NCBI RefSeq assembly: GCF_000620125.1
Contig: NZ_JHVL01000001.1
Location: 62,001 to 126,000, forward strand
Direction of reading: 5' to 3'
Length of the DNA stretch: 64,000 nucleotides
Source: Clostridiisalibacter paucivorans DSM 22131
Lineage (GTDB): Bacteria; Bacillota; Clostridia; Tissierellales; Clostridiisalibacteraceae
Below are positions 6,255 to 47,449 of this stretch, piece by piece. The notes beneath the pieces were generated by a model. It saw nothing but the letters and a program-made list of their open reading frames with translations, was not told where the DNA came from and did not search any database. The first letter of the stretch is position 1, and each line of letters opens with the position of its first letter. The position numbers and the translations under genes are program-made.

Positions 6255-9200
6255 CTATCTTCTTGTTCCAAATATAGCATATTTTCCTAGATTGTAGCCG
6301 TTTACATCTATGCTGGTATTTATTGGGTCCATTTCTCCTGTAGATATATTTTCCCATATACCTTGATATTCATTGTATCTACTTATAAATACCTTCTTTA
6401 TTCTTCTCATATTTGCCTTCTGTCTATCATATTCCAATGCCATATAAAACCCTGGCTTTGTAGTACTTACTGTGGTTTTTTCATTGCCCACATATTCTTC
6501 AGCCCATAATTTTATACCTTTAGATAACAGATGCTCTCCCTTGGGCTGTGTTATTTGAGAATCGTATGATATGGTAAATCTCACACCTGCATCACTTTCA
6601 TTATCATATTGTTCCATATTGCTGCTGCCAAATATATTGGGATTAAACTTAAATGTATAATCTGACCCTATAACTGTTATATCTTCTGAATCATCATCAG
6701 TTACTACATCGGCTGGCATACTTATACTTACTTCTGTGCTCCCTGCCAATATTCCTTCTGTTAAATCTATGGTAATTTCTTCATCTGCATCTCTAGTACC
6801 TATATTTACTACAGCCTTGTTTCCTACCTTTTCTGTTGTTGTATTTTCATCAAGCTCTCCATCGGTATCCTCTGGACCTACATCTGACCCTGTCTTTACT
6901 CTATTGGTCTCGTCTGAGGGCTCTGATGAGCCAAAATCTCCTACAGCCTTTATTACAAATTTGTATCTAGTTTTGGGTTCGATATTATAATATATATAAT
7001 CGGTCAATTCTGTAAACCCTATAAACTCCATCTGATCATCATCGGTTACTACATATATCTCATATCCTGTAGCATCTTCTACTGGAGACCAGTGTACCTT
7101 TATATATCTGTCATATACTAACTCTGCCTCGGCATTTAGCGGTGCCTGTAATTGAGGCAAGGTATATCTTATATCAGCATATATATCAGTGGCCCCTCCA
7201 TCGGGATTTATTACAATTATACCCTGAGTGTCTATCTTGCCTTCAGGGGTTACTACTGTCAATGTTGAGGAATCAATAAATTCCACCGATGTGCCTTCAT
7301 TACCTGATTCCAAAATCATAGGCTCTCCATCTATATATATAGTCTCTCCCTGTGCATCTCCTGTGGCAGATTTCAATACTGGGTTAAATATCACTCTGGC
7401 TCCAGGCATGAACCCTGTACCTTTAACCTTTATTGTCTCTCCTCCAGTTATGGAAATAGTATCTATCTTTTTCCTCTCGGTTTCATCTTCTGGGTCTACT
7501 ACAGTCCTTATTTTAGGTACACTTATATAGGTAAATGTACCTGGGGACTCAGCCAAAGACCCGTCACTATTTTCTATTTTCACCTGTACCGTTCCTGGTT
7601 CATGGGGTGGTGTAATTACATATATGGTTTTATAATCTACCACATTTATATCGTCTTCTGGTACCGCTGTTCCTCCAAAATATACCTTGAGTCCTTCTCT
7701 AAAGTCATTTCCTGTTATCTTTACCTTGGTTCCTCCTGTAGCTGGACCTGTATTTGGGTCTATATTGTCAACTTGAGGCTCTGTCTCTCCCTTTATAAAT
7801 TGAATATATATGGGTGGTGTCAATTGGTCTGAAGAATGTTGCCCCGAATCTTCATTTAGTACAGTCACCCTATGGAGGTTACCCACTGCATCCTCTGGCA
7901 CTGATGGCATAGTAAATGTCATCTTTGTGGGTAATGTATAGTCTATTTGTCCCGGCTCTATAGTAAGTATATCTGATATCAATATTTTTGCATTCTCTCT
8001 AAAGTCTGTTCCTATTACACTTACTATATTTCCACCCTTATAGGTCATCTGAAGTATCTTTACTTCTTTTCCATCTATTATGGCTGTTTGGGGTGATTTC
8101 CCTTCCTTGGTCATATTGATAATTCTAGGGCTACTATCGGGATTTTTGTACTCAAATTCAGTGCTGGCCGTACCACCATCGGGATTTATCACTGTTACAT
8201 CTACTATGCCTATTTCGTGATATGATGGAGTAATTAATTTTAGCTGCCCTGGCCCTATATAGTCTACCTCAGGGGCATATCCCCTCTCTACAAACAGCCT
8301 TCTATCCCTTATCTCTAATCTTATCAATTCTTGTCCTTGATATGGATTGTCATCTTTATCTAGTAACAATCTTGTATCAATATATTTTGTATTGCCATCA
8401 AAGTCAAATTCTCTGCTATACTCTATATCTTCCTCTGTAATATATACTGTGGCTTTATCGGTTATTCCATTGTATTCTACCTTCAATCTTCCTGAAAGAT
8501 TTACTGTTGCCTTACTGCTGTTGATTAAACCACCATTTTCATCTAATCTAGGTAAATCATTATTGGTTGTATCTCCAAATCTTACTAAGGTCTCTGGTGG
8601 CAATCCATTTTTTGCTGTTTCTACATCTAAATCTTCGCTCTTTACAAATCCACTTCCATATATCTCTACATTATCTCCTCCCTGCTTTTTACCCATTGCT
8701 GGTCTTATGGAGGTTATGGATGGATTAGATGATATATAGTTATAACTGACTTTATTGGATATACCCGAATCATTGTTGACTATATACAAATCTACTTTAC
8801 CCGCTTCATAAGGAGGAGATAATACCTTTAGGTATCCATCGGAAGCCTCCATTATCTGAGCCTCATTGGGCCCGAAATATATTTTTGGCAATATAGGTCT
8901 TACTATATTTTCATAGTTTTCTCCATATTCTTCCTTCAAATCGTCCAATGTATTTTCCTTGAGATAGTCTCTAAAGTCTTCCCACTGACCATTTCCATTT
9001 AAATCTTGATAATTCTCATCATCATCTCTTTCTCCATCCCTGTCATCATCATTCCAAGGCTCAAAATATCTAAAATCTTTTCCTATGATCTCAACTATAG
9101 TTCCCCCTGCTGCAGTCCCCTCTGTGGTCAATACCCTAGTTATTTCAGGATGACTTCTAGGTACTATATAGGTAAAGCCCTTCTCCAATGATGCATTGGC

Positions 9201-12200
9201 TCCATCAGGATTTATTACTACCACAGGAACCGATAGTCTGTCAGTTCCCAACTCTCCACTTAAATCTCCTGGATAAGGGGGTACTACTACAATTATCTTT
9301 GTTCCATCTATAGATACCTCTGTATCATCTGGGGATATCTCTATACCATTTATATATACTGTACTCTTCTCTGTACTTATATCTTTAAATTCTTCACCTA
9401 TGATTTTTATTTTATATCCTCCTTCGGTGGAGCCCTCGGTGGGATCTATGGCTGTTATCTTAGGTTTCGAATTGGGATGGGTAAAATAACGGAATCCATC
9501 TTCATCTATCCTACTATCCTTTTTAGTATCTGGATTCTGGACAGTCAAATCATAATATCCGTCTCCCTTATTCAATATGGGCACAGTAAAATGTAGTTTA
9601 TTCTTGTCTACTACCTTTACTTTATTTCCTACTATTTGACCTTCTCCATCGACTTTATAAGGGGTCTTCATATCTAATGTAACTATCTCTGTATCTCCAT
9701 CTTTTATGATTATACTATCACTCTGTTGTTCTAAATCATAAGTTTTGTCCCCTACCTTTTCTGCCCTTATATCTTCACCGTCTAACACTATCTCATAGCT
9801 GTTATTTACTCCATCTGATAATACTATATTTCTTTGGGGAGTCAACTCTATAGTATAGAAATTTTCCTTTGATTGGTCCTTTAATATCAAACTATTGTAA
9901 TAATCTTGAACCTTTACATCGGTAACACCATTTTCATCGGTATCTTTATAGAATAATCTATCTCCATTTGAAAAACTATACTGTGCTAATGTTATATTGT
10001 TGTCAGTATCTAAATTGTATTCATTTATATCTTCTCCTTCTAACAGCACCCTAGTTCCTATCAATTTATAGATCCCTGTCCTTATATTTCCACTCCCCTC
10101 TAACTCTGAAGGGGATGTGGTGGGGTCTGATTTTAGGAAATTATCTCCTGTAACAATAACCAATGTCCCTGTATTACCCTCTTTTGGAGTAAAATCAGTT
10201 ATTATTGGATTAGTATAGGTCTTTACATAGTAAAATGGTACTGTATCCATTCCTCCCTCTGGATTCATAACCTGCAACTGTGTATCTCCTTCCCTTCCTG
10301 GTGGAGCAACAAAGGTTATAGTTTTACCATCTCCAGACCTATCTATATTGTTAATTTCCTCTCCATCTATATATACCACTACTCCATCTTGAAAATTACT
10401 ACCATTTATTGTGACATTTTCTCCACCATCTATGGTAACTACATCGGGGATTACACTCTCTATTACAGGGCTCTTTTCTGCCCCTATATCTACAAATTCA
10501 ACCATATCTGGCTCAGTAACAGAAAGCCCCTCCTCCTCTGAGTTTCTAACGGGATTGATCACAGTTACTGGTGCCTTCCCTATATCATCCACACTTCTTC
10601 CTTTAGGTATAGTTACTATTATCTTTGTTCCTATTTCATTTTCCTTGGAACCATCTAATACATCTCCACTGGCATCTATTACCTTTAGTTCTATACCATC
10701 TTCAGTATTTTTATCTAATACTATATCTCCAACGATTATCTTTGGATATCTGGTGATTACCTTTCCTTCGTTATTTTCAAATTTATGTATCATAAAATTT
10801 TCACCATGTATAGCAAACATCCTGTCTTCAGGAATTTCATAATCTCCTGAAGTACCTGTAACTTGAATCTTTTCTGGAGTTACACTCTCTATCTCTGGCT
10901 CTATCTTACTGGGTATAAATGTATATCCATCTAACAATTCTGCCCTATCTGTAAAGATATATGTGGGTTCAGTATCGGCTTTATTTTCATAGAGTTCTGT
11001 TATAGTCTCTACCACCACATCCTTAGTGGCATCTATCTCTGCATCGGTAACAGGTTGAATAACTATTTTCAATCTATCTAAGTCCTTATTGAATGTTGAT
11101 TCCTTATCTTTAAAGTCTGCTCTATTTCCTATTATTACCTTTACTCTTTTTATTACTTTATTTACGGCATTTCCATTGTAAGCTCCTTTTCCATAGACCA
11201 ATTCTATCTCTGGCCCCTCCGCTGTATCCTTTATGCTTTTAGTTGAATTAGAATCATTTAGTGAAAGTCCATCTATATTTAGCGTTCCTAGATATTGGCC
11301 TGATATAGTAGCATCTGACCCTGAATCAGGGCCCGAATCAGGTTGCACACTTATAATGGTTGCCTTTCTTTTTCCTTCCACCACGTTAAATTTATCATCT
11401 AATAGTTTCTCTTGGGTTATCTCACTCATTGGATCATTGGTACTTGTCCTATTGGTTAAATATATATAGTATTCTCCCAATTCAATATTTGGGACTTCTA
11501 CTGTGAGTATATCTATATCTCCCTCTGCATTTGACCTAAATATGGGGTTTTCAGCTTTATTAGATACCTCAAATAGATCTCCCTTATTCTTGATAAAAAA
11601 CACATCATATTCATCTAATTCCTTTGCCTTAAAAAAGACCTTATCTCCTACTTCTCCCCTTTTCGGTATCATTTGAAGGTCATCTATCACTAACGGTTGA
11701 GTCAGGGTAAACTGATTTTGATAGGTATATTTAATATTGATATTTATATCATCATCAGTATCTGCTAAGTCTTGCTCATCAACAGATGTCCTAGTAAATA
11801 CAATTTCCTGCAATCCCAAATCTCCAGATACACCGTTAAATGTAGCATTTTGGTCATCTGTCACATCTATATTTGAAAAAATCGTGCCATTCAACTTCAC
11901 CTCTACAGGGTCTGCCCCTTGAAGTTGGTTTAAATTAGTACCTGTTACGTTTAAATCCGTACCTGTTTGGGCTATTCTATCTAATCCTGTCAATGTGGGC
12001 ATGGAGGTACTTTCATTCAATGTGACCTTTTTACTTTCTATCTTAATCTTGCTGGCCTTTATCTCTCCATCCACTTCAAACTGTATAGCTCCCTCAGAAT
12101 TATATGTCCTATTATTAAGGGGCACTATACCTCCTGCATCGGTTATTATACCTACTTGTGCATCCCTTAAATATGTTCCTTCAATAAGGATATATGTCTT

Positions 12201-12359
12201 TACTATCTGTCTGTTTCTATCATAGGTTCTACCTAATGTTATGTCTGTAATGGTAAACTTATCGGGGTCAAAGGCATGTCCCCAATTATCCCAGGGTGTC
12301 ATAGTAATTAATATGACAAATATCATGAGAATAGATACCATTTTTTTAAAGTTATTCAT
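6255..12359 (-). CDS. Giant exported IPT/TIG-repeat surface protein with one fibronectin III domain
   Basis: 2034 aa. A signal peptide (about 1-29) is followed by roughly a dozen IPT/TIG Ig-like repeats, recognisable by their hinge pattern, for example IDPTEGSTEGGYKIKIIGEEF, IRPAMGKKQGGDNVEIYGSGF and IDPNTGPATGGTKVKITGNDF. One acidic, EF-hand-like insert (about residues 1095-1115, DDDRDG and DLNGNG) suggests calcium binding. A single fibronectin type III domain lies at about 1735-1825, and a unique C-terminal domain (about 1840-2034) closes the protein. No SLH, sortase or membrane anchor is visible. The ATG directly follows the TAG of the 885-aa gene, and that gene's last codons carry the GAAGGAG site, so the two are translationally coupled and probably made in fixed ratio. 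The role is likely a cell-surface fibre or S-layer-associated protein (inference). Confidence 0.88.
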   Translation of the reverse strand: MNNFKKMVSILMIFVILITMTPWDNWGHAFDPDKFTITDITLGRTYDRNRQIVKTYILIEGTYLRDAQVGIITDAGGIVPLNNRTYNSEGAIQFEVDGEIKASKIKIESKKVTLNESTSMPTLTGLDRIAQTGTDLNVTGTNLNQLQGADPVEVKLNGTIFSNIDVTDDQNATFNGVSGDLGLQEIVFTRTSVDEQDLADTDDDININIKYTYQNQFTLTQPLVIDDLQMIPKRGEVGDKVFFKAKELDEYDVFFIKNKGDLFEVSNKAENPIFRSNAEGDIDILTVEVPNIELGEYYIYLTNRTSTNDPMSEITQEKLLDDKFNVVEGKRKATIISVQPDSGPDSGSDATISGQYLGTLNIDGLSLNDSNSTKSIKDTAEGPEIELVYGKGAYNGNAVNKVIKRVKVIIGNRADFKDKESTFNKDLDRLKIVIQPVTDAEIDATKDVVVETITELYENKADTEPTYIFTDRAELLDGYTFIPSKIEPEIESVTPEKIQVTGTSGDYEIPEDRMFAIHGENFMIHKFENNEGKVITRYPKIIVGDIVLDKNTEDGIELKVIDASGDVLDGSKENEIGTKIIVTIPKGRSVDDIGKAPVTVINPVRNSEEEGLSVTEPDMVEFVDIGAEKSPVIESVIPDVVTIDGGENVTINGSNFQDGVVVYIDGEEINNIDRSGDGKTITFVAPPGREGDTQLQVMNPEGGMDTVPFYYVKTYTNPIITDFTPKEGNTGTLVIVTGDNFLKSDPTTSPSELEGSGNIRTGIYKLIGTRVLLEGEDINEYNLDTDNNITLAQYSFSNGDRLFYKDTDENGVTDVKVQDYYNSLILKDQSKENFYTIELTPQRNIVLSDGVNNSYEIVLDGEDIRAEKVGDKTYDLEQQSDSIIIKDGDTEIVTLDMKTPYKVDGEGQIVGNKVKVVDKNKLHFTVPILNKGDGYYDLTVQNPDTKKDSRIDEDGFRYFTHPNSKPKITAIDPTEGSTEGGYKIKIIGEEFKDISTEKSTVYINGIEISPDDTEVSIDGTKIIVVVPPYPGDLSGELGTDRLSVPVVVINPDGANASLEKGFTYIVPRSHPEITRVLTTEGTAAGGTIVEIIGKDFRYFEPWNDDDRDGERDDDENYQDLNGNGQWEDFRDYLKENTLDDLKEEYGENYENIVRPILPKIYFGPNEAQIMEASDGYLKVLSPPYEAGKVDLYIVNNDSGISNKVSYNYISSNPSITSIRPAMGKKQGGDNVEIYGSGFVKSEDLDVETAKNGLPPETLVRFGDTTNNDLPRLDENGGLINSSKATVNLSGRLKVEYNGITDKATVYITEEDIEYSREFDFDGNTKYIDTRLLLDKDDNPYQGQELIRLEIRDRRLFVERGYAPEVDYIGPGQLKLITPSYHEIGIVDVTVINPDGGTASTEFEYKNPDSSPRIINMTKEGKSPQTAIIDGKEVKILQMTYKGGNIVSVIGTDFRENAKILISDILTIEPGQIDYTLPTKMTFTMPSVPEDAVGNLHRVTVLNEDSGQHSSDQLTPPIYIQFIKGETEPQVDNIDPNTGPATGGTKVKITGNDFREGLKVYFGGTAVPEDDINVVDYKTIYVITPPHEPGTVQVKIENSDGSLAESPGTFTYISVPKIRTVVDPEDETERKKIDTISITGGETIKVKGTGFMPGARVIFNPVLKSATGDAQGETIYIDGEPMILESGNEGTSVEFIDSSTLTVVTPEGKIDTQGIIVINPDGGATDIYADIRYTLPQLQAPLNAEAELVYDRYIKVHWSPVEDATGYEIYVVTDDDQMEFIGFTELTDYIYYNIEPKTRYKFVIKAVGDFGSSEPSDETNRVKTGSDVGPEDTDGELDENTTTEKVGNKAVVNIGTRDADEEITIDLTEGILAGSTEVSISMPADVVTDDDSEDITVIGSDYTFKFNPNIFGSSNMEQYDNESDAGVRFTISYDSQITQPKGEHLLSKGIKLWAEEYVGNEKTTVSTTKPGFYMALEYDRQKANMRRIKKVFISRYNEYQGIWENISTGEMDPINTSIDVNGYNLGKYAIFGTRR

Positions 12360-15034: not shown

Positions 15035-16189
15035 TCAAAATATAAATTCATCTACCAATTGTGCAAATGCCACTTTTCCTTCTTCCGTCACATAATATTT
15101 TATATAATATCCCTTTTTCAATACATTGGGACTATATGTCCTTCCATTTTTCTCTACTATAAATCCCATATCATTCCTAGGTATTGGAGATTCCTTCGCT
15201 ATAATATTTACAAATATATAATTATCATTCTTTACCTCTATGGTACGATTCAGCGTATTTACTGTATCATTGGAATAATTGCTTGTATTGGTCTCCGTTA
15301 TTATAGTATCATCTATATCTGTTATCTCTCCAGTATATATATTATATCCCCTGTCCAAAAGCACCTTGTCCAATACCTTATCCAATGCCCTGGCTATTTC
15401 TATTCTAGTAATGGAACCCTTGGGATTGAATTTATTGTCTGTCTCCAATATGCCCTCCTTTATGAGTCCTTCAATATAGGGAATATTTGCTGTAGATATC
15501 TGGGACCAATCCCTGTATTTATACACCATATTCTGACTTTCTCCATTTACAGGTTCTATATCTAATACCCTCGCCATCCATATAAAAAACTGTTCCCTAC
15601 TGACATATCCTTGCCATGTATATGCCTTTTCAAATTTAGATTTCAGCTGTTCCTCTATATTTTTTAGTTGTTCTTCCGTTATGTCTAAATTTTTCTCATA
15701 ATTCATCATCTGTTTTTCCAATTGAATTTCTAAGGACTCTTGATTTGATTCATTTATATTTTCTATCAATTGTTCTTCCTCACTAGTTATTATACCGTTA
15801 TTCTTAGCTGTTTGTATATATCCTAGACTCCAATAGTATGAAGGTCCTAATATCCTATAGTATGATGTGTCTGTATTATCTATTAAGTTTTCTCCCTCTT
15901 TCTGGGCCATTTCTTCAAGCCCTTGAAGTCTGACTAAAAATGCAATAGCTTCTTCCTTGGAGACCCTTCTATTGGGATAGAATTTGTCATTCCCCATACC
16001 CTTGACTATGGAAAATGCTACCAGTCTATTTAATGACACCTTGTCCCCTCTATTTGATACATCCACAAATTCCATACCTTTATGTAATTCCTTATATCCA
16101 CTTACCCCTTGATACTGGGTAATAGCCATGGATATATGGGTATTCATTATTACAATCAATGCTAGTATTATTGATGTTATCTTCCTCAT
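15035..16189 (-). CDS. SLH-domain surface protein heading the surface locus
   Basis: 384 aa from the ATG at 16189, which has a GGAGGGG site seven bases upstream; the in-frame TTG at 16210 lacks one. A signal peptide (about 1-22, ending SMA) precedes SLH-type modules at about 40-85 (FSIVKGMGNDKFYPNRRVSKEEAIAFLVRL), about 95-135, and 190-260 (RIEIARALDKVL). A Glu/Gln-rich, probably coiled segment lies between (about 120-180). The C-terminal about 100 residues form a small beta-rich domain of unknown type. It is first in the minus-strand surface operon, behind its own promoter, and diverges from the dockerin/cohesin operon. Confidence 0.85.
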   Translation of the reverse strand: MRKITSIILALIVIMNTHISMAITQYQGVSGYKELHKGMEFVDVSNRGDKVSLNRLVAFSIVKGMGNDKFYPNRRVSKEEAIAFLVRLQGLEEMAQKEGENLIDNTDTSYYRILGPSYYWSLGYIQTAKNNGIITSEEEQLIENINESNQESLEIQLEKQMMNYEKNLDITEEQLKNIEEQLKSKFEKAYTWQGYVSREQFFIWMARVLDIEPVNGESQNMVYKYRDWSQISTANIPYIEGLIKEGILETDNKFNPKGSITRIEIARALDKVLDKVLLDRGYNIYTGEITDIDDTIITETNTSNYSNDTVNTLNRTIEVKNDNYIFVNIIAKESPIPRNDMGFIVEKNGRTYSPNVLKKGYYIKYYVTEEGKVAFAQLVDEFIF

Positions 16190-16249
16190 TTGCAGTCCCC
16201 TCCTTATCAATTATTATCGGCAAGTTCCCAAGGTTTCTTCAGTATTAAT

Positions 16250-16371: not shown

Positions 16372-17757
16372 TTGCGTGTCAAAAAATCAATATTTATATT
16401 TTTATGCTGTTTTATACTGTTTCAACCTATATATAGTAATACTTCATCGACTTCTGAACTTATGGATGAAGTATATATAGCTCCTTATGTAGGTTATATT
16501 AAAGATTTAGACACTGCATATGAAAGAGTAACTGATGGTGGAACTATCTATATAAGACCCCATTTAAAAGATGCATATAACTTCACTCCCATATATGTAG
16601 AAAAAGACATAAAAATAATAGGTATAACAGAAGATGGGAGACGACCCTCTATTTTCTGCCCTCAAAATCCCCTAATAAGGTCTGCTGAAGACACTGCTCT
16701 ACATATTGAAAACCTCTATATAGGTTCAAATAATGACACCAATACACTATTGGAAAGCAACAGTAATAAACTAAGGTTAAATAATATACACTTCCTAAAA
16801 ATTATTCCAGTAACAATTAATAATTCATCTAAAAATTCCTCTCCCATAGACATATCAATTAATAGATGTACATTTCAAACTACTTATCCAAAAATTGATG
16901 TCCAATCCTATGTTTACGGAAATATCTCTATATCAGATAATACCTTTATAAAGACTCCAATTAAAATTCTCAACAATAGCTGTTCCCTAGAAATACATCA
17001 CAATACATTTGAAAATAGCACCATTGCAATAGAAAATAATACTGAGGATATCAATATATATAAAAACAAATTTCATGGTTATACATGTAAATTGCTTACT
17101 TCCTTAACTGACTATATAAATTTTTATCGTAATAGTATAATATGTTCAAATTTTTACTTAGAAAATTCTGATACATATCCCTTAGAGGCACAACAGAACT
17201 GGTGGGGAAGTAAAGACGGACCCCTTTTCTCTGAAAATGATGTGTTTTTTACAGGCCCTATTGATTACAATAACTGGTCCTGTGATGAAAATTTCAAGCA
17301 TTTTTTCCATGACCCAAAGGTTATTATACACGGTATTGCTAAACTTAAAAATGCCCTCTCCCATAACAATATTGATGTAAAACTACATTATATGGATGGG
17401 GAACATATAAAAGACACCTCTACAGATATAGAGGGGCATTATATATTTGAAGATATATTCCAAGATAGATATACCCTTACATTTAGTCATGACAAATTCC
17501 AGACCGTAAGTAAATATGTATATGCATCCACAGATGATACAGATATATCAGATACCCAGTTAGTCTATGATAAAGGATATTTTGATATAAATGATGATTA
17601 TATGGTAAATTTTGATGACCTAAATATTCTAGTGGATAATCTACATAAAGACCAAAATGATTCACAGTGGCATCCCTCATGGGATCTAAACAAAAATGGG
17701 TCTATAGACATAATGGACTTAATTATCATGCTGAGAAGTATAGAAAATAATTATTAA
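16372..17757 (+). CDS. Exported beta-helix protein with a C-terminal dockerin
   Basis: 461 aa, TTG start with TGGAGGTGG eight bases upstream. It has a signal peptide (about 1-23). Residues about 35-310 form a parallel beta-helix/pectate-lyase-like repeat region (NNIHFLKI, ISDNTF, EIHHNTFEN, NIYKNKFHG, NFYRNSI) ending in the QQNWWGSKDGP motif typical of right-handed beta-helix proteins. A carboxypeptidase-regulatory-like Ig domain follows (about 322-395). The dockerin occupies about 402-460, with two calcium loops, DINDDYMVNFDD and DLNKNGSIDIMD, each with the D1-N3-N/D5-N/D9-D12 ligand spacing. No catalytic residues of a polysaccharide lyase are evident. It is the first gene of a four-gene surface operon and the expected cargo of the next gene's cohesin. 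Confidence 0.87.
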   Translation: MRVKKSIFIFLCCFILFQPIYSNTSSTSELMDEVYIAPYVGYIKDLDTAYERVTDGGTIYIRPHLKDAYNFTPIYVEKDIKIIGITEDGRRPSIFCPQNPLIRSAEDTALHIENLYIGSNNDTNTLLESNSNKLRLNNIHFLKIIPVTINNSSKNSSPIDISINRCTFQTTYPKIDVQSYVYGNISISDNTFIKTPIKILNNSCSLEIHHNTFENSTIAIENNTEDINIYKNKFHGYTCKLLTSLTDYINFYRNSIICSNFYLENSDTYPLEAQQNWWGSKDGPLFSENDVFFTGPIDYNNWSCDENFKHFFHDPKVIIHGIAKLKNALSHNNIDVKLHYMDGEHIKDTSTDIEGHYIFEDIFQDRYTLTFSHDKFQTVSKYVYASTDDTDISDTQLVYDKGYFDINDDYMVNFDDLNILVDNLHKDQNDSQWHPSWDLNKNGSIDIMDLIIMLRSIENNY

Positions 17758-17781
17758 TACAAACTTCAGGAGGTAGATGGT

Positions 17782-18711
17782 ATGAATATTAAAAGATTAC
17801 TTGTCATGATTGTAATTTTTGGTATCCTTTTAATTCCTCTACATGGATACTGTGAGGAAATATCTCTGGAACTCCTCTTTCCTTCTCAAAATTTAACTAT
17901 AGATAAGGAATTCACAGTAGATATAAAGGTTGTAAATCCATCGGGTATGGTAGGTGGAGAAATCTATTTGGATTTTGACCAAAATATACTTACTCTATTG
18001 TCTTATGATTTAGATATATCTAATGTCACAGATTTTAAGAAATTGATAAATGAAAAGAACGTAAATCCCATATTTATATTTGGTTTAAACAGTGATACTG
18101 ACCCTTTATTGGGCGATAAGGTCATAGGTAAATTAAAATTCAAAGCCAATAATATAGGTGATGGAGAACTTAAAGTGAAAAATAACACTGTTATCATCAC
18201 CGAAGACGATAATGGTAATTTCTCTTGCAATAAAGTTTCATCGGTTCCAATTTCATATACTGTATCAAAAGGTGGAAATCTTTTGGGAAAGATCAATATA
18301 GACAATACCCATATTTTACAGCAAATACATATAGATATCCTTAAAAATCATACTATTACTTCTTCTACAACTCCCAACCAAAATGGCTCCTTTGAAATTC
18401 CAAATTTAGCCCAAGGTCAATATATGCTACACATATCCCTTGAGGGTTATAGGGATGTATACAAAGAATTTACTATAGAGAATAATATGGACACAAATAT
18501 AGTTATACAAATGGTTAAAGATACATTGGGAGATCTAAACGGTGATGGCATAATAACCTTTGCCGACTTAGTAATAGCTGCAAGCTACTATAAAATAGAT
18601 AGAGATGATAATAATTGGTCTGAAAATATCAGTAAAGCCGATGTCAATGATGATGGAATCATAGATGTATCTGATCTTGTAATTATAAATAGGTCCATTA
18701 CTAATTACTAA
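17782..18711 (+). CDS. Cohesin-dockerin adaptor protein (scaffoldin-like)
   Basis: 309 aa. It has a signal peptide (about 1-24) and an N-terminal cohesin domain (about 27-160; VDIKVVNPSGMVGGEIYLDFDQNILTLL is the typical strand and ends with VIGKLKFKA). A carboxypeptidase-regulatory-like Ig module (about 165-247) leads into a C-terminal dockerin (about 250-308) with two clean calcium loops, DLNGDGIITFAD and DVNDDGIIDVSD. The order Ig-like module then dockerin recalls X-module-dockerin pairs of cellulosome scaffoldins. An AGGAGGT site precedes the ATG, 24 bases after the previous stop. It probably bridges the beta-helix protein and the SLH-anchored cohesin of the next gene; which cohesin binds which dockerin is inference. 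Confidence 0.87.
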   Translation: MNIKRLLVMIVIFGILLIPLHGYCEEISLELLFPSQNLTIDKEFTVDIKVVNPSGMVGGEIYLDFDQNILTLLSYDLDISNVTDFKKLINEKNVNPIFIFGLNSDTDPLLGDKVIGKLKFKANNIGDGELKVKNNTVIITEDDNGNFSCNKVSSVPISYTVSKGGNLLGKINIDNTHILQQIHIDILKNHTITSSTTPNQNGSFEIPNLAQGQYMLHISLEGYRDVYKEFTIENNMDTNIVIQMVKDTLGDLNGDGIITFADLVIAASYYKIDRDDNNWSENISKADVNDDGIIDVSDLVIINRSITNY

Positions 18712-18732
18712 TTTCTTTCTGGGGGAATTTTT

Positions 18733-19803
18733 ATGAATAAAAAAATTATTTTTATATTGATAATTTTGCTAATATCTTTTAACACTATACCTGTCCACAG
18801 CTCTGATAATGAAAATCTAGTACATATATCTATATCTGATATAGAAAATATATATGGCTTTGCATTGATTATAAAATATGATGGAAAGAATATATCATTT
18901 GACAACGATTCTGTCATCCTTAATTCAGATATACTAGATAAAGACCATTTCATCGCAAGAAATAAAATAAATCACGATACAAATACCATTACATTGGCGA
19001 TAACACTTCTAGGACAAGATACATCATTTAATTCTAATATAGATATAGGGCATATTCCATTTGAAGATATTAAAGAACAAGATATAAAATTAGATGTTGA
19101 TAAGAGTGTCATTCTAGATATCGATGGAAATCCACTAAAACATAGTCTAAGTAATATAAAATTTCATTTTAATAAATCCCATAATACTGTTAACAAAAAT
19201 AAAAGAAAACACAATAATAAAATACAATCTGTGGATAAAGAGGGGATAAAAGACCCTTTATTATATAATGATGTGGAAAACTATTGGGCAAAACCCTACA
19301 TATTGGATTTGTCATCTTTAGGTATAGTTCATGGTTTTAATGATAGTGGCTTTCATCCCGATGAATATGTAACCCGCAGTCAAGTGGGTAAAATGTTAGC
19401 AATAATCTTAGATGGCAATATTATCGGCAAAGGTGAATCTGTTTTTATAGACAGAGCTTCAATACCCAGTTGGGCATATAATCACATCACATACATTAAC
19501 CGATTGGGAATAATGAAGGGATTTCTTGATAATAGTTTTAGACCTAAATCAGCTGTTTCCAAAGGAGAAATGGCAGTGATTATAGACAGGGTCCTTGAAT
19601 TTAAAGATATACCTGTGGACAATAGTGGGGATATTTTTTATAATGATGAGAAAAATTTTCCTCATTGGTGTAGAGATTCCATATCTAATGTATCCTGTAT
19701 GGATATAATGGGTGGATGTGCCGATGGGTGTTTTAGATATCGAGACCATATAACTAGAGGGGAATGTTGTGAAATATTGGTGAATTTATTAGATGTTTTG
19801 TAA
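18733..19803 (+). CDS. Cohesin-like protein with three SLH domains (cell-wall anchor)
   Basis: 356 aa. It has a signal peptide (about 1-23). Residues about 28-150 have the length and strand pattern of a divergent cohesin (LVHISISDIENIYGFALIIKYDG, then ITLAITLLGQ, then IGHIPFED). A Lys/Asn-rich linker (about 155-172) leads to three SLH repeats at about 178-225 (VENYWAKPYILDLSSLGIVHGF), 238-285 and 298-350. The third SLH carries an unusual cluster of cysteines (CMDIMGGCADGCF, GECC). The architecture matches anchoring scaffoldins of cellulosomes. A GGGGGA site precedes the ATG, and it shares the operon with the dockerin genes. The cohesin call is weaker than the SLH call. Confidence 0.78.
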   Translation: MNKKIIFILIILLISFNTIPVHSSDNENLVHISISDIENIYGFALIIKYDGKNISFDNDSVILNSDILDKDHFIARNKINHDTNTITLAITLLGQDTSFNSNIDIGHIPFEDIKEQDIKLDVDKSVILDIDGNPLKHSLSNIKFHFNKSHNTVNKNKRKHNNKIQSVDKEGIKDPLLYNDVENYWAKPYILDLSSLGIVHGFNDSGFHPDEYVTRSQVGKMLAIILDGNIIGKGESVFIDRASIPSWAYNHITYINRLGIMKGFLDNSFRPKSAVSKGEMAVIIDRVLEFKDIPVDNSGDIFYNDEKNFPHWCRDSISNVSCMDIMGGCADGCFRYRDHITRGECCEILVNLLDVL

Positions 19804-19864
19804 AACAATTGAAATATCTCCACACCCTTTTATCTGTTATAATTTAATGGGAAGGGGTGAGAAT

Positions 19865-20446
19865 ATGTTCAAAAAAATTGTATCTCTATTACTAGTTTTT
19901 TTAATAGTATTAGGCACTGTCGCATTTGCAGAAGACTCAAACATAGAAAAGTTACAGCAGGATTCTGCCACTCGATTAGTAAAATTAGGTATAATTAAAG
20001 GTTATAATGATGGCACATTGAAGCTTAAAAATAATATTAGTAGAGCTGAATTTGCCACAATGATGACTAGACTTATAGGTAAGGATGATTTAGTAGATCA
20101 GTATAAAACCGATTCCCAATTTGAAGATGTAACTGCCACACATTGGTCTGCCCCTTATGTCAATATAGCTGTAAAGGAAGGTCTTATAAAGGGATATCCC
20201 GATGGTACGTTTAAACCACAAAACAATATATCCTACGGTGAAGTGTTGACCATATTAATAAGACTATTGGGATATGAAGAATCAGTTAATACTGAAGACC
20301 AATGGCCAATCAATTATGTGAAAAAATCTGTGGAATTAGGTATAAATGGCGATTTGCCCATATCAGTAAACTCCAACGCCACAAGGGGAGATGTGTCTAT
20401 ATTTATTGATAATAGTTTATTGGTTAAGTTAAATAAAGCATATTAA
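19865..20446 (+). CDS. Small exported protein made only of SLH domains
   Basis: 193 aa. The ATG at 19865 is preceded by AAGGGGTGAG; an upstream in-frame start overlapping the previous gene has no such site. A signal peptide (about 1-22, ending AFA) is followed by three SLH repeats: LVKLGIIKGYNDGTLKLKNNISRAEF, FEDVTATHWSAPYVNIAVKEGLIKGYPDGTF, and a weaker third with NATRGDVSIFIDNSL. It has no other domain. It could bind the wall through SLH and serve as a spacer or lattice component for the operon's scaffold. It is the last gene before a bidirectional terminator. Confidence 0.88.
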   Translation: MFKKIVSLLLVFLIVLGTVAFAEDSNIEKLQQDSATRLVKLGIIKGYNDGTLKLKNNISRAEFATMMTRLIGKDDLVDQYKTDSQFEDVTATHWSAPYVNIAVKEGLIKGYPDGTFKPQNNISYGEVLTILIRLLGYEESVNTEDQWPINYVKKSVELGINGDLPISVNSNATRGDVSIFIDNSLLVKLNKAY

Positions 20447-44004: not shown

Positions 44005-45438
44005 CTATTTTATTAAATAATACTGTCTAATCCCATCTGCTATACTTTTGGAAACTTTCCTCAGATAATCTTCCTTTGATAACAACATTTCTTGAGCTGG
44101 ATTAGTTATATAATCTACTTCCAGCCATAAACAATTTACAGGTATTTGCCTCAATATATAGAAGTTGGCTTCTTTTACACCTCTATTAATTATACTCAAG
44201 TCTTTGCTAAGTTGTTCTAATATAGATTCTCCCAATGCTTTACCTTGTAAATCTCCTTTATAATAATATCCCTCTGCTCCCTTTACTGAAGAGTTATGAA
44301 ATCCATTCAAGTGTATACTCAAGAACAAATGGGGCATTATGTCCTTACACTTATCTACCCTATCAGATAATGGTACTAATCGGTCTTTTTCTCTAGTTAT
44401 ATAGGTTTTACTTCCCATGTCTTCTAGCTCATTCAATAAAAATTTAGATATATTTAATACAACATCTTTTTCTAACAATCCTGTATCTCCTATATTCCCT
44501 AGAGAATCCTTTCCTCCATGCCCTGGATCTATCATTATTATTTTGCCCAATAAGGGCTTTTTTATACATGGGGTGTAGATACTAGTTATCTCTACTCCAG
44601 TATAATAATAATTTATTATTTCCCTATAGTTATAGCCTTTTTCAGCCATAACACTTCCACCATATTGACACAATCCTAACCCATGTCCTTCTCCCTTAGT
44701 CTCTATAAGTAGTGACTTTGGCGTTATAAAAAAATTTGTTGAATTAAGATTCAACAGCTTTTTTATCTCTACGCCTTTAAATTCTCTACCACACATATTT
44801 ATCTTATTTATTCTACCCCGTTCATCTTTAAAAATTTTATCTATAATCCCCAATAGATATTCTTTGTTTTTTCCCTTTAAATTAATCCCTAATTTTTTTT
44901 CAAGTTCATCCATATTTATTTCTTTAGTATTTTTAAAAAACGGTGAGTCTTTACAATGATCACATAATACTTTTCTTAAATACAAAATTCTATTGCCTAA
45001 AACATCTTCAGAATTTTCAGTAGACCCTCCACATGTATGGGTATACAGTGCTTTTATGGGCTTTTTATTTTTCGTTATAATAAGACCTCTAGTTTCTTTT
45101 ATGGCATAATCCACCTTAGATATAATATTTTGTCCTCTTTCAGTATTTATGAATTCTATAAACTCATCTTCTTTCATTATCTCTATACAGTGTCCTTCAT
45201 CACATACATCACATCCATCATGCATTAAACATCCTCTTCCTCCATATATCCTCATATTCCTTATCAAAAGGGTTCGGGCTATTATACTTTGAACCTTCAA
45301 AAATTCTTCGTTTAACGTAAAAAAACCTTGAGCCAACACTACTCTTCTTATTGCTTCCTCTAAAGTCAATTTTGTCACTCTATCTAAATTAGTAGTATAC
45401 ATATCTATATAAATTATATTATTATTCCTATTTATCAA
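44005..45438 (-). CDS. SpoIID-like domain fused to N-acetylmuramoyl-L-alanine amidase
   Basis: 477 aa. The first half (about 20-290) is a SpoIID/LytB domain (IIARTLLIRNM, KALYTHTCGGSTENSEDVLGN, GEGHGLGLCQYGGSVMAEKGYNYREIINYYYTGVEI), and the second (about 300-477) an Amidase_3 zinc hydrolase (MIDPGHGGKD, SIHLNGFHNSSVKGAEGYYY, LEVDYITNPAQEMLL). This joins a glycan-strand cleaving and a stem-peptide cleaving activity, the pair that SpoIID and SpoIIP supply separately during engulfment. No signal peptide is visible at the TTG 45438 start (AGGGGGT upstream) nor at a later ATG. It may need an unusual export route or be forespore-specific. Confidence 0.88.
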   Translation of the reverse strand: MINRNNNIIYIDMYTTNLDRVTKLTLEEAIRRVVLAQGFFTLNEEFLKVQSIIARTLLIRNMRIYGGRGCLMHDGCDVCDEGHCIEIMKEDEFIEFINTERGQNIISKVDYAIKETRGLIITKNKKPIKALYTHTCGGSTENSEDVLGNRILYLRKVLCDHCKDSPFFKNTKEINMDELEKKLGINLKGKNKEYLLGIIDKIFKDERGRINKINMCGREFKGVEIKKLLNLNSTNFFITPKSLLIETKGEGHGLGLCQYGGSVMAEKGYNYREIINYYYTGVEITSIYTPCIKKPLLGKIIMIDPGHGGKDSLGNIGDTGLLEKDVVLNISKFLLNELEDMGSKTYITREKDRLVPLSDRVDKCKDIMPHLFLSIHLNGFHNSSVKGAEGYYYKGDLQGKALGESILEQLSKDLSIINRGVKEANFYILRQIPVNCLWLEVDYITNPAQEMLLSKEDYLRKVSKSIADGIRQYYLIK

Positions 45439-45646: not shown

Positions 45647-47449
45647 ATGAAAGGTACAACAGTCTCTGCATGGATAAAAACATGTAAGAAAAAATATGGT
45701 GAAGATTTAACTATAGAAGCTATGGAATCTATAAATATGGATCCCAATAAAATATTTAAGCCTACTGAAGATGTAGATGATTCTTATCCCTTTGGTATGG
45801 TAAATTTTATATCAGAAAGGTTAAATAAATCTTCATATGAGATATGGGAAGAAATAGGGATAGACAATATAAATACATTCTTTAATGATTATCCAGCATT
45901 CTTTGACCATAAAAACTTATATTCATTTTTAAAATCTATGTACGATGTACATGTGGTCATAACACAGAAAATACCTGGAGCCAAACCTCCACTATTAGAC
46001 ATAAAGGCTATAGGAAAAAACACAGCAGAAATGACTTATAAATCCTCTAGAGGTATGTTCGGGTATTTTCATGGTCTATTAAAGGGTGCTGCTCAATTCT
46101 ACGATGAAGATATAGATGTAAAAACTGTAGAAAAAACTGAAGATTTTACTAAAATACATATAACCTTTCCTGAACAAATATATAGATATAAATCATATAA
46201 AGTGAATAAATTATTGTCCTTTGGATTTATCAAAAGTATGGAAATGAAAATAGCCTTAGCTTCAGTAATTCTTATAGGAATACCCCATATATTCTTATCA
46301 GATATTATAGATGGCAATATACTCAATAGTATTATTTTAGGATTATCTTTCTTTGTTCCATTAGTAATTTCGAAACTACTTTTTTTACCTAAAAATAATA
46401 TTACAGCCCAACTCAAAGATTTATCTGAACGAAATTATGCTGAAGACAATGATATAGCAACAAATGACTTTTTCGAAGACATAAATCGATCCCTAACTTC
46501 ATTTAAGAATATTGTAAAGAGCGATTTTGTAGGCTTCAAAGGTATGACTGATGAATTAAATGTATTTGGAGAAAAATTTAATGATATTTCAGTAAATATG
46601 AATGATACGTCTAAAGATATTGCTGGAGTAGTTGAACAGGTTGCAGAAGGTGCTGTTAACCAAGCTGAAGAAACTGAATCTGCCGCATATCTTTTAAATA
46701 ACAATATAAAGGCATTAAATGAAATAGTAGATAAAGAAAACAATAGTAAAAACGAATTAGAAGTAGCTGTTGGAAAAATCAACGATGGGTATCAAGAATT
46801 AAAAAATACATCTTCTAATCTACAAGAAATAATTACACAGTTCTCAAAAGTTAAAGAAGACAGTCTATCTCTACAAAACAAAGCTAAAGATGTTACTAAA
46901 ATCGTTAGTGCTGTAGAGGCTATATCAGAACAAACTAATCTTTTAGCACTAAATGCTGCTATAGAGGCATCTAGAGCTGGAGACTTAGGCAAAGGGTTTG
47001 GAGTGGTTGCACAAGAAATTAGAGAATTGGCCGAAGAATCCAAGGATGCTGTTAAAAATATAAATAACAATCTATTGTCTTTCATAAAGGAAATTGATCA
47101 ATTGGTTACCCAAATTGAAGAACAATTCACTACCCTTAACAGCGAAAATAAAAATTTATCCAATGTGGCTCAAGGTAACTATGATACCGTTGTAAGCATA
47201 GAAAAAGTATCTACTTCACTCATAGAAATGATTAATCAATTGACCAGTGAAGCCAATGCTATAAATGATGTATCCTCAAATATAGAAGCGTTGGCTGCCA
47301 TAGCCGAAGAAAATTCTGCATCTTCTGAAGAAGTAAGTGCAAATGTAACCACATATACTCAAGAATTAGAAAAGATGATGGGAAATATAAGAGAATTCAA
47401 AAAAGTTTCAGAAGGATTTAGAAATGATTTAGAAATGTATAAGATATAA
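45647..47449 (+). CDS. H-NOX (heme gas-binding) methyl-accepting chemotaxis protein
   Basis: 600 aa. Residues 1-190 are an H-NOX domain: His102 is the heme ligand, Y131-x-S133-x-R135 the propionate motif, and P115 is kept. The three distal-pocket residues that stabilise O2 in the Thermoanaerobacter enzyme also appear at the same numbers: W9, N74 and Y140. Two membrane helices lie at about 200-243, with no HAMP. A chemoreceptor signalling domain follows (about 270-600), its tip reading [38 protein letters not shown]. It probably drives avoidance of oxygen or NO. GGGGGA precedes the ATG. Confidence 0.95.

Follow-up and report, generated by a model that had tools for sequence, protein, structure and literature searches.

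The DNA analysed here, hereafter called the window, comprises 64,000 nt of contig NZ_JHVL01000001.1 from Clostridiisalibacter paucivorans DSM 22131. It contains four open reading frames (ORFs) on the plus strand which were located where the original prediction had placed them and which are separated by intergenic gaps of 24, 21, and about 61 bases (Table 1). The ORFs of genes 1 to 3 are intact and encode proteins of 461, 309, and 356 aa, respectively, in which signal peptides and every calcium ligand are present. Their previously proposed domain order is supported by Pfam, by orthologues and by fold matches. The fourth ORF, as listed, starts at 19793; however, a Shine-Dalgarno sequence (AAGGGGTGA) and the starts of its orthologues indicate that translation probably begins at the downstream position given in Table 1. 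A promoter scan of the locus scored about two standard deviations above shuffled sequences, and a terminator scan returned the count expected from shuffled sequence.

Table 1. Features of the cohesin/dockerin locus, numbered by position in the window.
Feature	Position	Strand	Assignment and basis
Gene 1	16372..17757	+	Putative secreted cargo; Pfam, genome scan, repeats, PDB X-dockerin match
Gene 1, beta-helix-like repeats	about 16462-17305	+	
Gene 1, X-module	about 17323-17568	+	
Gene 1, dockerin	17569-17754	+	
Gene 2	17782..18711	+	Putative adaptor; Pfam, orthologues above cohesin cut-off, PDB X-dockerin match, cohesin fold
Gene 2, cohesin	about 17857-18276	+	
Gene 2, X-module	about 18283-18519	+	
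Gene 2, dockerin	18520-18708	+	
Gene 3	18733..19803	+	Putative anchor; SLH by Pfam; cohesin by profile, orthologue and fold; lack of a middle domain by alignment
Gene 3, cohesin	about 18802-19173	+	
Gene 3, SLH repeats	about 19264-19800	+	
Gene 4	19865..20446 (probable start)	+	Small secreted SLH-only protein; Pfam, orthologues, synteny, start site

Adjoining genes code for lysine 5,6-aminomutase, for a protein resembling MutS and for lysine 2,3-aminomutase. None of the 27 window proteins scanned was a glycoside hydrolase. Both findings agree with the non-cellulosomal setting that had been proposed. The host bacterium appears to live on amino acids and not on plant fiber. Elsewhere in the window, one protein (44005-45438) matches SpoIID at its N-terminus and an N-acetylmuramoyl-L-alanine amidase (Amidase_3) at its C-terminus, perhaps representing two fused wall enzymes of sporulation, and another (45647-47449) joins a chemotaxis-receptor signaling domain to a Haem-NO-binding (HNOB) domain.

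The N-terminal part of the gene 1 product exhibits a motif resembling “IxIxxNxF” every 21-24 residues, which is common to five orthologues, and this region terminates in NWWGS..GP. Judging from the 21-24 residue repeat, the region is described here as beta-helix-like; Pfam beta-helix models returned no match to gene 1. A catalytic domain was detected neither by Pfam nor by NCBIfam, and none was convincing in the orthologues. At the C-terminus, Dockerin_1 scored 20.8 bits in the protein scan and 24.4 bits in the genome scan (cut-off 22.9), directly preceded by a CarboxypepD_reg match under its own Pfam cut-off. The second protein consists of a cohesin, a carboxypeptidase-regulatory-like X-module and a dockerin. 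Its Dockerin_1 match reached 29.6 bits, again with CarboxypepD_reg directly before it. As read from the sequence, all four calcium loops of the two dockerins retain their D/N ligands.

Gene 3 encodes an N-terminal domain followed by SLH repeats. Of the cohesin and dockerin assignments that Pfam was expected to return, the dockerins of both genes stood, whereas the cohesin of gene 2 remained below threshold (15.8-19.0 bits, cut-off 24.1) and the scan of gene 3 called SLH and no cohesin. The orthologues do pass: 41.5 and 38.2 bits were obtained for gene 2 in two relatives and 31.0 bits for gene 3 in one relative. In addition, family profiles of genes 2 and 3 align across the N-terminal domain at 97.5% probability. 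AlphaFold models were built from the window sequence with alignment rows of cohesins and dockerins from named loci. Given these rows, which include other cohesins and make the fold result dependent on that assumption, the N-terminal domain of gene 2 was matched to 2vo8 at VIA Z 16.8 (rmsd 1.9 over 131 residues) and that of gene 3 to 1anu at VIA Z 11.0 as its best match (rmsd 2.9 over 117 residues). For gene 2, 2vo8 of C. perfringens and 2xdh of A. fulgidus rank among the best structural matches, and for gene 3 all top 40 rows were cohesins. The orthologue scores and the profile alignment are independent of the assumption built into the models. Since these two lines and the predicted folds agree, both N-terminal domains can be regarded as cohesins, and the cohesin fold on which the original prediction for gene 3 hinged is indeed predicted. 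The alignment further revealed that gene 3 of the window lacks a middle domain of ~100 residues which is present in its orthologues. Used alone as a query against the genome contigs, gene 3 gave no match.

The carboxypeptidase-like Ig modules in front of both dockerins had been compared to X-modules, and searches of the PDB bear this out. When pooled, the gene 1 and gene 2 X-dockerins match those of ScaA (A. cellulolyticus) and CipA (C. thermocellum), both of type II, with E values of 5e-17 to 7e-14. The gene 1 and gene 2 families also do so separately (E 7.5e-13 for gene 2), and the matches span both the Ig-like X-module and the dockerin with its two calcium loops. The X-module resembles the Ig-like module of carboxypeptidase D and is thought to stabilize the dockerin (PMC5141474), which accounts for the CarboxypepD_reg matches. 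Among the cohesins, type II ScaB and anchoring cohesins rank first by sequence, and type I and type II tie by structure.

Trees of the modules from the four genomes carrying genes 1 to 3 separated the cohesins of gene 2 from those of gene 3 (support 99/98) and the X-dockerins of gene 1 from those of gene 2 (support 99/99), placing the underlying duplications before the divergence of the four lineages. Both cohesin types and both X-dockerin types are retained in all four genomes, as a chain running from gene 1 over gene 2 to gene 3 would require. The gene 2 protein combines a cohesin with an X-dockerin, and these modules are paralogues of the gene 3 cohesin and the gene 1 X-dockerin. It could therefore be envisaged that gene 2 proteins join end to end, dockerin to cohesin, and polymerize into a stalk whose length varies, with gene 3 as its anchor and gene 1 as its cap. 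The paralogous lineages are, however, well separated and kept so in every one of the four genomes, which suggests distinct specificities and renders self-polymerization rather unlikely.

Counts across the host genome (99% complete) are in line with the previously suggested private system: even at E <= 1 only two dockerins were found, one in gene 1 and one in gene 2. The three relatives that carry the genes likewise have no dockerins beyond their own two. A genome scan with PF00963 returned a single match, to gene 2, and none at E <= 0.001, a search which divergent cohesins such as that of gene 3 can escape. These counts bear on an arrangement in parallel, in which the gene 3 cohesin would take both dockerins, genes 1 and 2 would be separate cargoes and the gene 2 cohesin would serve an undetected partner. 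Promiscuous binding is possible for type II X-dockerins (PMC5141474), to which both X-dockerins of the locus belong. Nevertheless, the genome offers no third dockerin for the gene 2 cohesin and the trees keep the gene 1 and gene 2 X-dockerins distinct, so that parallel attachment is considered improbable.

Components of a cellulosome were also searched for genome-wide. The PF00963 scan, which may miss very divergent cohesins, identified single-cohesin proteins only and no multi-cohesin scaffoldin. Neither of the two dockerins resides on a protein with a hydrolase domain, that is, no dockerin-bearing glycoside hydrolase was found. A search for CBM3 (PF00942) gave zero matches in the genome, with a control matched in Bacillus subtilis, and a GH48 scan was without matches in the host genome and equally silent in the control genomes. 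The GH48 exoglucanase is typical of cellulosomes, though not universal.

Full-length homologues of gene 2 were identified in four of the 249 genomes of the order, distributed over three families, and among 391 genomes across the class in this genome only. The three other genomes with genes 1 to 3 belong to two further families of the order. The gene order is kept in all four at 33-47% protein identity, a recurrence that exceeds chance. In the wider locus, genes for large secreted surface proteins are located on one side and the small SLH-only gene, often together with kamE/kamD, on the other. By Pfam, the large flanking proteins are TIG-repeat proteins in the window and in a second genome (G011), the two that were scanned. 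One of them is a giant surface protein of 2034 aa (6255-12359) with at least eight TIG domains and one fn3 domain, which adjoins the locus in G011 too. A 391 aa SLH protein of the window (15035-16210) has an apparent counterpart of 891 aa in G011 (L013, 11786-14461), relative to which its C-terminal half seems to be missing.

The surface-protein genes directly adjoin the SLH-only gene in four genomes (G016, G025, G030, and G038), where the slot is empty. In another genome (G009), the slot holds a beta-helix homologue without a dockerin, directly followed by the SLH-only gene, and the genome shows zero cohesin or dockerin matches. In this homologue of gene 1 (L110, 6039-7574), a long Pro/Glu-rich linker and a different C-terminal stretch of ~70 residues stand in place of the dockerin. 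In G023, a lipoprotein-like gene occupies the usual position of the SLH-only gene. Its sister species G007 has lost genes 1 to 3 together through one deletion of 3.5 kb, which starts at about residue 85 of gene 1, covers the whole of gene 2 and leaves no more than a few final codons of gene 3; the flanking DNA shows 92-95% nucleotide identity. Genes 1 to 3 are thus gained and lost jointly, the dockerin disappearing along with the cohesins, as counted over few events, and this constitutes the best evidence that they function as a unit. The SLH-only gene had been included as a fourth component. This is not supported by its orthologues, which are present without genes 1 to 3 in several genomes, and a four-gene unit was rejected on account of this independent occurrence. 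Because genes 1 to 3 appear and disappear together without gene 4, the latter is excluded from the unit and is probably an independent resident outside the docking chain.

The same comparisons allow an assessment of whether the locus is decaying. The window copies of genes 1 to 3 are the most diverged of the four, showing the lowest identity and the longest branches; gene 3 is short of a domain, and the genes have been lost completely in G007. A once larger, cellulosome-like system that is losing function in this species would fit these features. On the other hand, ORFs, signal peptides and all calcium ligands are preserved, the genome holds neither CBM3 nor another dockerin, and the three relatives are likewise confined to their own two dockerins. 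Such decay is therefore judged very improbable, and a cellulosome remnant was rejected as the main reading in view of the missing CBM3, multi-cohesin protein and third dockerin.

The computed evidence comprises the domains and their order, their relationship to cohesins and to type II X-dockerins, a genome in which no further dockerin was found, and genes that are present or absent together. On this basis, we consider it likely that genes 1 to 3 encode three secreted proteins, one each of cargo, adaptor and anchor, which join through calcium-dependent docking into a self-contained chain. The cargo, adaptor and anchor logic of the original prediction would accordingly hold for the first three genes. 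In this chain, the SLH repeats of gene 3 would attach the assembly to the cell wall, the adaptor encoded by gene 2 would dock onto the cohesin of gene 3 through its X-dockerin, and the cohesin of gene 2 would bind the X-dockerin of the beta-helix-like gene 1 protein, whose rod would thereby be displayed in the S-layer zone. There it might serve in adhesion, in binding of wall or S-layer components or in spacing. The pairing of gene 1 with gene 2 and of gene 2 with gene 3 is deduced from the anatomy of the proteins. Each of the pairs gene 1/gene 2 and gene 2/gene 3 shares a reading frame interrupted by one stop codon, so that a dockerin and the cohesin following it could be modeled from the window DNA as one chain in which a residue stands in for the stop. 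With the X-modules left out, the individual domains of the two models reached good confidence (mean pLDDT 81 and 80), but pTM values were 0.67 and 0.61, and the linker was disordered. As only two dockerins and two cohesins were found, the whole interaction map amounts to four pairwise tests, for which the natural gains and losses and the dockerin-less version of the cargo provide built-in controls.

Cohesin and dockerin modules outside of cellulosomes are known, though they are often scattered and their partners unidentified. In the literature covered, from which subscription papers are mostly missing, cohesin, dockerin and Tissierella co-occur in one general review only, and no paper combines cohesin, dockerin, beta-helix, S-layer and operon. 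Several known systems are nonetheless comparable. The type II attachment of cellulosomes, as in C. thermocellum CipA/CipB with their anchoring cohesins and A. cellulolyticus ScaA-ScaB, shares with the present locus the fusion of X-module and dockerin, cohesins closest to type II by sequence and an anchoring cohesin borne on SLH repeats (PMC5141474). In contrast, no multi-cohesin scaffoldin, enzyme or CBM3 was seen here; each protein carries one cohesin, and all parts are located in a single short cluster. The cohesin-dockerin adaptors of Paenibacillus guangzhouensis resemble gene 2 in having one cohesin and one dockerin each, and Paenibacillus-type systems also possess cohesin-SLH anchors like gene 3, with genes often adjacent. 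According to a 2024 survey, P. guangzhouensis has 28 such monovalent adaptors, along with five SLH anchors (PMC11557425). In those systems, anchors are shared among many adaptors, of which many also bear a glycoside hydrolase, enzymes being a common but not universal cargo, whereas here one of each part is found, together with a separate cargo lacking a known enzyme domain, and X-modules. The search behind the survey called for a protein with several cohesins as well as a hydrolase bearing a dockerin (PMC11557425), a filter that the host genome would not pass.

Similar dockerin/cohesin-SLH arrangements were encountered at loci of Paenibacillus, Cohnella and Niameybacter. At six loci (L049, L050, L053, L056, L057, and L058) from these genera and from Clostridiaceae, cohesin-SLH genes adjoin dockerin proteins with GH123, GH53 or other domains. 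A separate cluster of similar logic in a genome of the same order (G223; L095, 2650-10370) encodes a phosphodiester glycosidase (NAGPA)/metallophosphatase protein ending in cohesin-dockerin, a GHL10-dockerin protein and a protein with a cohesin and three SLH repeats. In G044 (L016, 6907-10385), a 642 aa dockerin protein, in which a cohesin-like region may precede the dockerin, is followed by an SLH protein whose N-terminal domain may likewise be cohesin-like, Pfam confirming only dockerin and SLH at that locus. The pairing of dockerins and anchors at the level of the locus thus looks common in Bacillota. Use of cohesins and dockerins without cellulose degradation is shared with Clostridium perfringens, Archaeoglobus fulgidus and ANME archaea, among which ANME-2c harbor non-cellulosomal cohesin/dockerin proteins, some with S-layer domains (PMC9012536). 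What distinguishes the present locus from these is the full chain from cargo to anchor in one cluster that is gained and lost as a block.

Taken together, a two-tier chain, two orthogonal cohesin/X-dockerin pairs, parts in one copy each, display of a non-enzymatic beta-helix protein in the S-layer and gain or loss as a three-gene block would make the anchoring half of the cellulosome a general surface architecture, a view to which we incline by a little over even chances. If true, the type II anchoring half would be a general means of hanging a protein on the S-layer, and the cohesin/X-dockerin pairs could serve surface display. The docking principle itself is already known and is wider than the survey reports (PMC11557425); new is a minimal, private, X-module-bearing and apparently non-enzymatic version of it that is inherited as a block.
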